DNA of 64,000 nt from Kappaphycus alvarezii (lineage: Eukaryota; Rhodophyta; Florideophyceae; Gigartinales; Solieriaceae): contig NADL03000451.1 in NCBI GenBank assembly GCA_002205965.3, forward strand, positions 1,736,001 through 1,800,000, in the 5' to 3' direction. The notes under the pieces were generated by a model, which did not search any database, was not told the origin of the DNA, and was given only the letters and a program-made list of their open reading frames with translations. A program made the position numbers and the translations under genes. Numbering within the stretch: position 1 is the stretch's first letter; the number at the start of each line of letters is the position of its first letter. This document shows, piece after piece, positions 25,663 to 31,985 of the stretch.

Positions 25663-28600
25663 CTAGAGGTCCTTGCTGCTTTCCCTGCATAGGTGTTCAT
25701 ATTCTTGGCAAATTAACTCATCGTCGTCGTCATCGATGACAACCGCGGCCGAAGATGTTTTATGTCTCGCATCAGCGCCCGCATCCGAGCAACTTCAGCG
25801 CATACCTCAGCCTGTGACGTGGCAACTTGCTTGTGTTTCCGCGAAAATAGGGGACGTAAACGTCACGTCGGGATCAGGGTTAATATGATCGAGATCGTCT
25901 TGTACATCAGCAGTGTCATGAGCCTCCAGCCTCGCTCGCTTTGATACCTGTGCGGAGGGCGAGTATTTTTCTACCCGAACACGCTTCTGCTGCCCATTAG
26001 ATTTCTGGGGCTTTTCTCTAGACTGCAGTATGATATTGGTTTGTCCGCTTTTAAGTTTGCGCAGAGATTGACCATCCCAGCTGCGAATAAGTTGGGACTG
26101 AACACCCCCGTAGGCGTTAATATACAAATGACCTCAACAATTTTGAGTTGACAAAGCTCCTCAATAATCCGATAAATTTCATTATCCTTCAAAAACCCCT
26201 TACCACCGCCAAAATGTTGTGAGTCAAATGCTGGTTCTTCTTAACTCTTGATTTTCGCCCCATATAAAACTCAACGATATATGCTGCTGACTGACCGGAT
26301 ATTTGTCTCCCGGAGGTCTGGCAATCACCAATAATTTCGGCAATAGCAATCCCGTGCTCGCTAACATCAACATTCCGAACAACTCCGCGGGTATTCTTAC
26401 AGTTGTCGCACTTTGGGTCACAGCGGGAACGGTCGAACTTTTCATCGAAATGCGCGAGCAACAGGGTTCTGCACTGAACATCATCAGGCAGTAGGCAACA
26501 ATCTTCGCAAGTCCTTGAGTATTTCTTAGCACTTGTTCCTCACTCATTGGGGCACTTTCCGAACTCCGGCTGCTCGCTAACCGATGTTTCCCAGATCTTC
26601 CCCTGCCGCCATGTCCACGACCCTGTTGTACGGATTTCCACCTGGAGCATCCTGAAGGATCATGTTCAAGACTTTCATTCGATCACTCATGTTGAAGTAT
26701 AAGACACATCTACTGAGTTTTCCATCTCGTCCGGCACGACCACTTTCCTGGTAGTAACCCTCAATGTTTTTCGGGAGTGTGTGATGATAAACATAGCGAA
26801 CGTCGGCTTTGTCAATTCCCATTCCAAATGCCAAAGTACTGCAAATGATGTCAATGTTTCCTTGAGACCAGGCAAGCTGATTTGACCTCCGGATGTCATC
26901 ACTAAGCCCCGCGTGGTACGGCAAAGCCCGAAGTCTATGTTGCCGCACGAGAGTTTCGGCGACTTGCACACAATCTCTTTGACTGAAGCAGTATATAATA
27001 CCCGCCTCACCTTGATGTATTGTCTTAATCTCGGTTGCAATTTCCTCGACCACATTTTTTGTTTTCTTCTCTGACCTCGTAAGCAAGATTCGTGCGATTG
27101 AAGCTTTGCTTGAACATAATACATCCTCGACTGATGCGAAGTTGCACTTGATATCCTCACGCACTTCCGGTGTGGCGGTTGCTGTGAGAGCCATATAGGA
27201 ACCTTCGGAAATCGCTCTTTAAAGACTGCCAACTGCTTATAATCAGGGCGGAAGTCATGGCCCCATTGCGACACACAATGGGCTTCGTCAATCACGAACC
27301 GTTGCAGGAGTTTACGGCGAAAGAGTGAGGACAGAAGATCAAAGAAAGCCGGACTCCTTGTGATTTTTCCGGTGTTACATAGACCATCTTAGTCATTGGG
27401 GTGCGGTTGTTTAAATCTTTCATGAGTTCAGTTCTAGTCTTTGCTGGCGTCCCTGATGTTAGTGCCCACAAGGAATTTTCTTCGACCACAGCTGCTCAAC
27501 TTGATCCTGAATTAGGGAAACGAGCGGAGAAATGACGACAGTCACACCTTCCGAGAGGAGAGAAGGAAGTTGGTAACAAAGCGATTTTCCACCTCCAGTT
27601 GGCATCAGAATGAAGACATCCTTTCCAGAAAGTGCAGCGTTCATGGCCTCTCTCTGGTTCTGCCGAAATCCCGGATTTCCGAATACGTTTCGATTGTGCA
27701 TTGCGAGTTGAAATGACCACGGAAACTTTCTTGTCGGCCCATCCTTCCACTGATTTGCCGCATCTTCGGAACCCTCGGTACCGTATTGTGAGCCCTGAAT
27801 TTCTCGTAGAGTGCCTCTCCCGGAGCTTTCGTCGGCGTAAATGCCATCGGGCGCTCCTCGTCATCCTCAAAGCTTATGTCAGCGACTTGATGTGGGTCAT
27901 CCGTGCGCGTCGCCGTTATGGGGTTTAGCTCATCCAAATCAACAGGCAATTGCTCTGGTCTCTACCGGATTCAAATTCAGACGGTTGATGTTCCGTGGAG
28001 CCATAACTGAGGGAATTTTGCAATTCCTGTCTATTACCAGGCGTGCGGATGCCAGCGCTGTCCAAAACGTCTCGGGTCGTTAGTTGTGGTTGCGGGGAGA
28101 AATAGTTATTTGTGATGTTGATGTTGCTAGCGCTCGACGGATGACAATGGGCGGGAACTAGAAGGCGCAACTTGCACAACGCCCGTGGGCTCTATTCGGA
28201 ATGGATTACCTGCCTCATACTCTGGTGATTTCTGTAAAGGGCACCAGGGCCTTGGAAGGCAGGGACTTCAGGAGTGACTGGTGAGAATAGTGTCGGCAAG
28301 GTTGCCGACTTCGCCCGGGCAGGAGTTTTGCGTATCAGCGTTTTCCAATTCTGCTAAATTTCGGTTCAATATCTCGAGTTGCTCTTGCTGCTCCTTTCGT
28401 CTTGCTGTATATTTCCTAATGGTCTCTTCGTCAATGTCCATTGCTAGCAGCTTTGATATATCGTACAAATTATCATGCACAGCAACGATTCGCCTCTTTA
28501 CCTTGGCGATTTCGGCTGCATTTCTGCCATTCGACAGGTCTGTCTGGGCTGTTATGGTGGAGGAAGCGGGGACCGCTTGGTTGCTTCCACCACACACAGG

Positions 28601-29563
28601 ACGGGGCGCTGGGGCGGGACTCGCTGATACTTTCGAAATCCTGTTGCTTTCGGCAATCATTGAGTCGACATCTAATTGAGCGAAAAGGAGATCATCATTT
28701 TCGTCTTCTTCAGTAACGTAATGCGATTGGTTTTGCAGACTTACTCTCGAGGTCGCATCGCAGCCATCATTGAAATTCCTACCCGAGGCATTAGGTATAT
28801 TGAATCCAAAAGGCTTTCGACTTACATCTTTGGAGTAGGAAGCTCTGGTAAAAGTTTGCGATTGGTTTGGTGGAATCGCCGATATCCTCACCATGCGGTT
28901 GCGAAGGGGATAGAAGGTCAATCAAATCCTCGTCGACGTCAGCTTGTGCCGTGTTGTATGGGGCAAGCTTTTCATGTCGCTCCTGTTCCAGAATAAGGGA
29001 CGCCGCGAATGTCAGTAACGGCGGAGGCAGGCTCGGCTCCTTCGATACTTCTTGATTAAAAAGTCTTCTTCTAGGTGGAGTACTGAAGGTTGGTTTGGAA
29101 GGGCCTGGCGGTGGTCGACTTGCCGACGCTGATGCAGGGTTCGAAACTGAGGGCCTTTGAATAAAATGTGGCACTGTCGCGGGAGCTTGGGGATTTGACA
29201 ACCCATTGGATGGGATAGATGTTACGGAGGAAGACGGGTTGGGTTGAAACGGGTGGTGGAATGGTTCCAGTATTGGGAGACTGGTTGCTGGGTCGCGGGG
29301 AATTGCGGTGCTTCTCTTTGAATTGAGATGAGCACCTGGTCCGGAGTGTATGGGACGCGAGTTCTCTTGATGGCTCTCGGTCGCGGGGGATCGGAGTATT
29401 GGCGTTGTTCGGATTCGCTAGGTAATTTTGCATGGCCACGTGCGAGCATCGGGGGAGTGGGGCCGGAGTTATGACGAACACTGGGTCTATTGAAGAAACT
29501 GCGTGCAAGATGCAGCGAGGTTCGTGCGGTTGGGGCGTTGCCGGCCCCGGCATTGGTGGGCAT
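25663..29563 (-). CDS. RecQ family DNA helicase, BLM/Sgs1-like, frame broken by indels
   Basis: The N-terminal ~500 residues (27950-29563) are Pro/Ser rich and disordered, as in BLM/Sgs1, with one helical stretch ([18 protein letters not shown]). The helicase core follows: FRQNQREAM, Walker A GGGKS (~27582-27602), DEAH in [18 protein letters not shown] (~27285), [11 protein letters not shown], then domain 2 with [20 protein letters not shown] and [10 protein letters not shown]. An RQC part has zinc ligands CDPKCDNC near 26410 and winged-helix phrases (LTHNIL, VEFY). No HRDC domain is seen. The last ~40 residues are acidic (IDDDDDE). The core is cut at 27464, 27364, 27196, 26590, 26486, 26193 and 26127, each time by one apparently missing base, mostly in a run. 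The start is uncertain (29563 is the first ATG of the last open frame). Expected role: unwinding recombination intermediates in the nucleus. Confidence 0.85.
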
Positions 29564-30373: not shown

Positions 30374-31985
30374 ATGTCGTTGGCTTTTGATGAGTACGGA
30401 CGACCCTTCATCATCTTGCAGGAGCAGGAAAAGAAGACTCGCCTAAAAGGTATCGATGCGCTCAAGGCAAATATTGCAGCGGCACGGTCCGTTGCCCGTA
30501 CACTCCGCACTTCACTGGGACCGAAGGGTATGGACAAGATGCTGCAGTCTGCGGATGGAGACATTACTGTAACCAATGATGGCGCTACCATATTGCAGGA
30601 GATGGATGTCGAGAATCAAATCGCAAAACTCATGGTCGAGCTTTCCAAGTCTCAAGACGATGAGATTGGAGATGGGACCACGGGTGTTGTTGTACTTGCG
30701 GGGGCGTTGCTCGAACAAGCCGAAAAGTTGCTAGACAAAGGTATTCACCCTACCAGGATCTCAGAGGGCTTTGAGCGGGCAGCTGACCTCGTCATTCCTT
30801 TACTGCGCAAGCTATCTCAGCCACTGGACTACAGCAGCTCGAATGGCTACGAGGAGCTTATCAAGACTGCAATAACATCGCTCAACTCCAAGATTGTCAG
30901 TCGCATGAAACGTCCTTTGGCTGAAATTTGCGTCAAAGCTGTTCTTTCTGTTGCTGACCTTGATCGCAAAGACGTCAACCTGGACCTGATCAAGCTCGAC
31001 GGTAAAGTGGGAGGCAAACTAGAGGACACTGCCCTGGTAAACGGGATTGTCATTGACAAGGATTTCAGCCATCCTCAAATGCCTTCGAAAGTGGAAGATG
31101 CAAAGATTGTTGTCCTCACTTGTCCTTCGAACCACCCAAACCGAAGACCAAGCACAAACTGGATATCTCAACCGTAGATCAGTACAAGGAGATGCAAGAA
31201 GCTGAGCACAAATATTTCACGGACATGGTTAAGGCAGTGAAAGACTCTGGCGCGAATCTTGTGGTGTGTCAATGGGGATTCGATGATGAAGCAAATCACC
31301 TTCTTTTCAAGCATAACTTACCCGCCATTAGGTGGGTCGGTGGCTCCGAGATTGAGCTCATTGCTTTGGCGACCGGTGCGCGTATTGTTCCACGATTCCA
31401 GGAAATTAGCTCTGCAAAGCTTGGAAAGGCCAAAACCGTTCGTGAATTGTCGTTCGGAACTACCCGAGACCATGTTATTGTGTTGGAAGACTGCGCATTC
31501 TCCAAATCAGTGACCATTTTCGTCCGTGGCGGCAACAAAATGATAATCGAGGAAGCAAAGAGAAGTATTCACGATGCGTTATGCGTTGTGCGAAATTTGA
31601 TTCGCGATAACAGGATTGTGTACGGTGGAGGTGCAATTGAAATTGCGTGTTCCAATCTAGCCTCTGAGACAGCTGATCAGATCCCAGGGGTTGAACAGTA
31701 CGCAGTGCGCGGCTTTTCCTCAGCATTGGATAACGTTGTCATGGCTCTTGCCGAGAATTCTGGGCTTCCGCCAATTGAAACGTTGGCAGACGTAAAATCT
31801 CGGCAGATTAAGAAGGAAACCAATATCTCGGTATTGACTGCATGGAGGTTGGGACGAATGATATGCGTGAGCAGAACGTATACGAGGCGCTTGCATCAAA
31901 GATTCAGCAGTTCCAGCATGCTACGCAGATGGTCAAAATGATCCTTAAGATTGATGACACGATCTTGCCTTCAGAGTACGAATAA
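30374..31985 (+). CDS. CCT5: T-complex protein 1 subunit epsilon (group II chaperonin)
   Basis: One of eight subunits of the cytosolic CCT/TRiC ring that folds actin, tubulin and other proteins using ATP. The start at 30374 gives [12 protein letters not shown], the usual epsilon N-terminus. Chaperonin signatures are all present: [16 protein letters not shown], the ATPase motif GDGTTG, and YGGGAIE near the C-terminus. The end reads [11 protein letters not shown]. With two frame repairs the product is ~537 aa, normal for the family. One base is missing in the TT run at 31126-31127 (CPFEPPKPK expected) and one near 31825 (just before LGIDCMEVG). Everything else is conserved, so these are probably sequence errors rather than decay. 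It is intronless, divergent from the helicase, and its stop lies 60 bp from the end of the next gene. Confidence 0.95.

Follow-up and report, generated by a model that had tools for sequence, protein, structure and literature searches.

The question raised by this locus is whether two conserved genes are broken in the genome itself or only in its assembled sequence. Within the window, the whole stretch of 64,000 nucleotides that was analyzed, the first-pass annotation reported host genes interrupted where one base is lacking, for the most part within homopolymer runs, and attributed the breaks to uncorrected assembly indels. We read the region in all frames and compared the pieces with sequences of solved structures and with Pfam. 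The reported breaks in host genes proved largely real, but one of the listed positions (62104) was wrong, and runs were not favored.

The CCT5 gene (T-complex protein 1 subunit epsilon; positions 30374 to 31985, plus strand) extends from its ATG to a stop codon across three reading frames and was identified by PDB matches and by Pfam Cpn60_TCP1. When the pieces were compared with PDB sequences, piece 1 matched residues 6-260 of the epsilon subunit 5uyx (E 3e-104), piece 2, in the next frame, matched residues 254-484 (E 3.4e-103), and piece 3 matched residues 485-539 (E 6.9e-14); taken together, the three frames account for nearly the full length of the protein. Epsilon chains were the best match for all three pieces. 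The homologues bear out both annotated breaks, at 31126 and near 31825. The first falls at 31123 to 31126, where the pieces overlap at residues 254-260 (5uyx numbering), one base is short, and no residue is lost; frame-aware alignment gave a single -1 step here at all five penalties. Since this shortfall concerns a third codon position, neither the base nor the run concerned can be told from the protein. The second lies between 31815 and 31827 and is also one base short, piece 2 ending at residue 460 and piece 3 starting at residue 461 of 6nr8 chain E. Steps of +2 and +1 near 30829-30848 appeared at the lowest penalty only and gave way to a codon insertion at the four higher ones, so they were not counted.

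The second gene, on the minus strand at approximately 25663 to 29700, encodes a RecQ helicase of the BLM type, identified by PDB and Pfam matches; its N-terminal part is unconserved. The best PDB sequence matches of the helicase pieces were Bloom syndrome protein chains. In the best-scoring version of the joined pieces, chain 7auc reached 398.1 bits, compared with 331.2 bits for the best RecQ1-type match and 312.9 bits for RecQ5. BLM was also the best match to the helicase core, a DEAH box is present, and both DEAD and Helicase_C were found in Pfam. The RecQ_Zn_bind match was weak (16.3 bits, below its 25-bit cutoff), and no RQC or HRDC match was obtained among the helicase pieces scanned.

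To locate the helicase breaks, all on the minus strand, the pieces were placed in sequence with an X at each junction and compared with PDB sequences. The match to BLM chain 7auc was 370.7 bits before breaks near 27147 and 27071 were allowed for; allowing for these, and for a pair of residues at each of two further junctions, raised it to 398.1 bits, and a conserved SFNRxNL stretch emerged in this path. In a frame-aware alignment to BLM that penalized gain and loss alike, the same five steps were returned at each of the five penalties tried: one base short near 27465, 27361, 27194, and 27147 and two bases short near 27071. The first three, at 27462 to 27468, 27361 to 27368 (touching a run of 5), and 27194 to 27197 (touching no run), bear out the annotated breaks at 27464, 27364, and 27196. 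The other two, at 27147 to 27150 (one base short) and 27067 to 27070 (a shortfall of two bases, or else a surplus base and one residue fewer), were absent from the annotation and form a pair that cancels in frame; a one-residue gap is still left inside the stretch between them in the 398.1-bit alignment. Together with a transposase break near 1018, described below, they bring the breaks that the earlier list left out to at least three.

Further along the helicase, in the zinc-binding part, a weak alignment (an 11-bit second domain only) suggests that one base is short at 26485 to 26488, in agreement with the annotated break at 26486. Frame changes are present at the three other annotated positions as well (26590, 26193, and 26127), which no homologue pins because the sequence there is poorly conserved. 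One, not localized, lies in unconserved sequence at 26545 to 26610, where a codon decoder reads two +1 steps; the others lie at 26190 to 26199, touching runs of 4 and 5, and at 26127 to 26133.

In all, eight junctions are placed by homologues, two in CCT5 and six in the helicase. Seven are one base short and one, the helicase break near 27071, is two short (or has one base too many and lacks a residue). Conserved motifs are kept on both sides of the breaks in both genes, as had been noted before and as the homologue alignments confirm.

The proposed association with homopolymers fared differently. We determined the longest run touched by each of the 10 localized host-gene junctions and compared it with intervals of equal length placed at random 20,000 times within the coding stretches of the two genes. 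In this test, which has little power at n = 10, runs of ≥3 were touched by 4 junctions (expected, 3.63; P = 0.52) and runs of ≥4 by 2 (expected, 0.91; P = 0.23); among the 8 verified junctions, 2 touched a run of ≥3 (expected, 2.70). Markov shuffles gave run lengths close to those in the window: for A/T runs of length 5, 6, and 7, the counts were 145, 42, and 11, slightly below the 157.4, 47.4, and 16.6 of an order-2 model (each within 1.5 SD), and they agreed with an order-1 model. The junctions therefore show no run enrichment, contrary to the claim that they lie mostly in runs, and we rejected homopolymers as the cause. Losses look scattered relative to run length, and runs as the main cause are not supported. 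Because the junctions do not favor runs, the breaks should not be mended by assuming homopolymer runs.

Frame changes were also reported in transposons, with mixed outcomes. In the Harbinger transposase (minus strand), a frame change at 1159 is visible in the frames but coincides with the margin of the DDE_Tnp_4 match and is therefore spanned by no profile. A second change, which the annotation lacked, lies at 1013 to 1023 (near 1018), where 11 bases stand in place of the 12 that the profile needs and DDE_Tnp_4 positions 1-44 and 49-132 are found in two pieces. A frame change was likewise seen at 40851 in copia, where neither flanking piece has a Pfam match and the only support is the spacing of a CX2CX4HX4C motif. 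The change near 35025 in the non-LTR element is visible by eye. The break assigned to gypsy 2 at 62104 did not stand: the position falls inside an open frame of 503 amino acids (61314 to 62825, plus strand), with Retrotrans_gag and a weak RVP_2 (protease) match on either side, and the element breaks further on. In its reverse transcriptase and RNase H stretch (62680 to 63720, plus strand), visual reading gave eight frame changes, each amounting modulo 3 to the lack of one base, and two of them are supported by RVT_1 and RT_RNaseH profile positions. By profile positions, then, Harbinger near 1018 and two gypsy junctions are one base short. The copia and non-LTR changes mostly have the same sense, with some reading as +1 or -2 (transposon positions of about 40960, 43290, 43700, and 35175). 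Harbinger (near 1290) and gypsy (near 63257-63272) also contain in-frame stops, so these two elements may be partly decayed as well.

Several other features were noted in the window. A transposase piece at 45885-46610 (minus strand) matches DDE_1 (E 7.3e-23) and, weakly, a Tc5-type DNA-binding domain. Upstream of gypsy 2, an open frame of 197 amino acids (60170-60763, plus strand) matches a zinc finger of the C2H2 type (zf-met, E 1.6e-06). An open frame of 542 amino acids at 33367-34995 (minus strand) has only a weak reverse transcriptase match (E 0.014) and a length that is hard to square with evenly spread errors. Beside the non-LTR frames, at 35983-36060, lies a tandem repeat of 23 bases in 3.4 copies with 98% matches, nearly perfect in an otherwise error-prone window.

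Near the host genes, an open frame of 425 amino acids (24090-25367, plus strand) ends in a CCT motif (PF06203, E 9.8e-12), a domain known from plant and algal regulators, and is unbroken, unlike its neighbors. The sequence GTACTGTAC occurs in 12 copies on the plus strand and one on the minus strand, at 6410-6592, 21448-21461, 29943-29995, 32947-32960, and 51730; it forms a tandem array near 6.5 kb and is also found between the divergent helicase and CCT5 genes. Internal repeats of the window, considered as an error control, amounted to two weak matches, with no LTR pair. No relatives of CCT5, the copia integrase, or the gypsy reverse transcriptase were found in viral_contigs, and none of CCT5 in genome_contigs; tRNA and Rfam scans of the window returned nothing.

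On the evidence of the sequence, uncorrected single-base assembly losses, an ordinary artifact, are very probably the explanation of these breaks and the best one available. A draft consensus would have lost single bases, on the order of one to four in each kilobase of this stretch, and the organism probably carries the genes intact; we infer that the genome has the bases and the assembly lacks them. We prefer assembly error because losses dominate, because the protein continues on both sides of the breaks, because a path of 1026 codons contains no stop, and because host genes and unrelated transposons are hit alike, CCT5 included. CCT5 is a core chaperonin subunit that is essential in eukaryotes; were the breaks present in the genome, its loss would be surprising. 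Several observations weaken the case for assembly error. Break density is uneven, frames of 425, 542, and 503 amino acids being open compared with five verified breaks in 1.2 kb of the helicase, and the homopolymer enrichment of deletions that the available text on Kastor reports (PMC12007338) is absent here. Long-read error profiles are not always dominated by losses (PMC8011154), and some of the transposon changes have a +1 or -2 reading. A reference-free codon decoder, itself weak (0.12 nats per codon) and partly circular because it was trained on the same genes, returned no more than a slight surplus of losses: for penalties of 4, 5, and 6, losses and gains stood at 35 to 20, 10 to 8, and 9 to 3, and for a penalty of 7 at three to one, with no shifts at 9 and 11; four Markov shuffles at a penalty of 4 gave 3 to 4.

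Could the helicase, and perhaps CCT5, instead be true pseudogenes, such as a decayed extra copy beside transposons? Broken transposons are abundant in the window and the helicase has many breaks, as such decay would have it, but we consider this unlikely. Every break is flanked by intact conserved motifs, the losses are all short, and CCT5, a gene on which strong constraint would be expected, is also hit. Decay should bring stops and motif damage besides indels, but none of the 1026 codons along the path used is a stop and the core motifs are kept, in pieces that were chosen as open ones and with the 27147-27071 stretch still in the wrong frame. At an estimated 3.2% chance that a random substitution creates a stop, a path with 72 to 90 substitutions would stay free of stops 5 to 10% of the time; this number of substitutions is an assumption, and the stop test is modest evidence. 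Introns deserve almost no credence as the source of the frame changes. Gene content marks the organism as a eukaryote, and frames can be shifted by small introns, but all eight verified junctions are short of bases, with none in excess, and the homologue continues without intervening sequence; introns were accordingly rejected at these junctions.

Recoding in many genes, by -1 ribosomal frameshifting or by base-inserting RNA editing, would account for steps that run mostly in one sense, yet it is scarcely credible. An in-frame X XXY YYZ slippery heptamer overlaps the shift at only 1 of the 10 junctions (26193), and such heptamers occur at 5 of the 1026 codon positions of the path, this one among them. 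The old frame runs on without a stop for many codons at 31126, 27364, and 27196, and transposons are hit likewise. In the accessible parts of the Euplotes reports (PMC10235951, PMC4759687), the steps are +1 and at stop codons; here they are -1. A eukaryote that reads its genes and transposons with many unmarked one-base corrections, through insertional RNA editing or motif-free -1 slippage, is improbable in the extreme.

Assembly error, as the first-pass annotation had proposed, is therefore retained as the best reading of the testable evidence, without its homopolymer mechanism. Its corollary that pseudogene calls in the window are inflated would apply to CCT5 and the helicase but only partly to the transposons, because some of their changes have a +1 or -2 reading and in-frame stops are present in two elements. 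Statements of gene loss or of pseudogenes drawn from this window are not trustworthy until checked against reads.

Three known systems offer a comparison. Euplotes, as far as the cited texts could be consulted, is the known case of genome-wide frameshifting, +1 at stop codons (PMC10235951, PMC4759687); the window resembles it in that the frame changes in many genes with intact protein on both sides and differs in that the sense is opposite, the steps are not at stop codons, no shared junction motif was seen, and transposons are included. With neutrally decayed pseudogenes, the window has in common frame changes in genes with clear homologues, but the path lacks stops, conserved motifs are kept, and single-base losses dominate; the usual deletion-to-insertion ratio of pseudogenes was not found in the literature searched and was not relied on. 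For draft long-read assemblies, the portions available of two reports differ in the direction of error. Kastor describes deletions enriched at homopolymers and one assembly in which false deletions make up most indel errors (PMC12007338), whereas the drafts described for Homopolish are dominated by insertions (14,394, versus 439 deletions; PMC8011154), so a bias toward loss depends on the pipeline. Errors in these assemblies, as far as those portions go, are mostly tied to homopolymers, unlike in the window, where 10 junctions showed no run enrichment; like these assemblies, the window carries short, frame-shifting indels in otherwise conserved genes.
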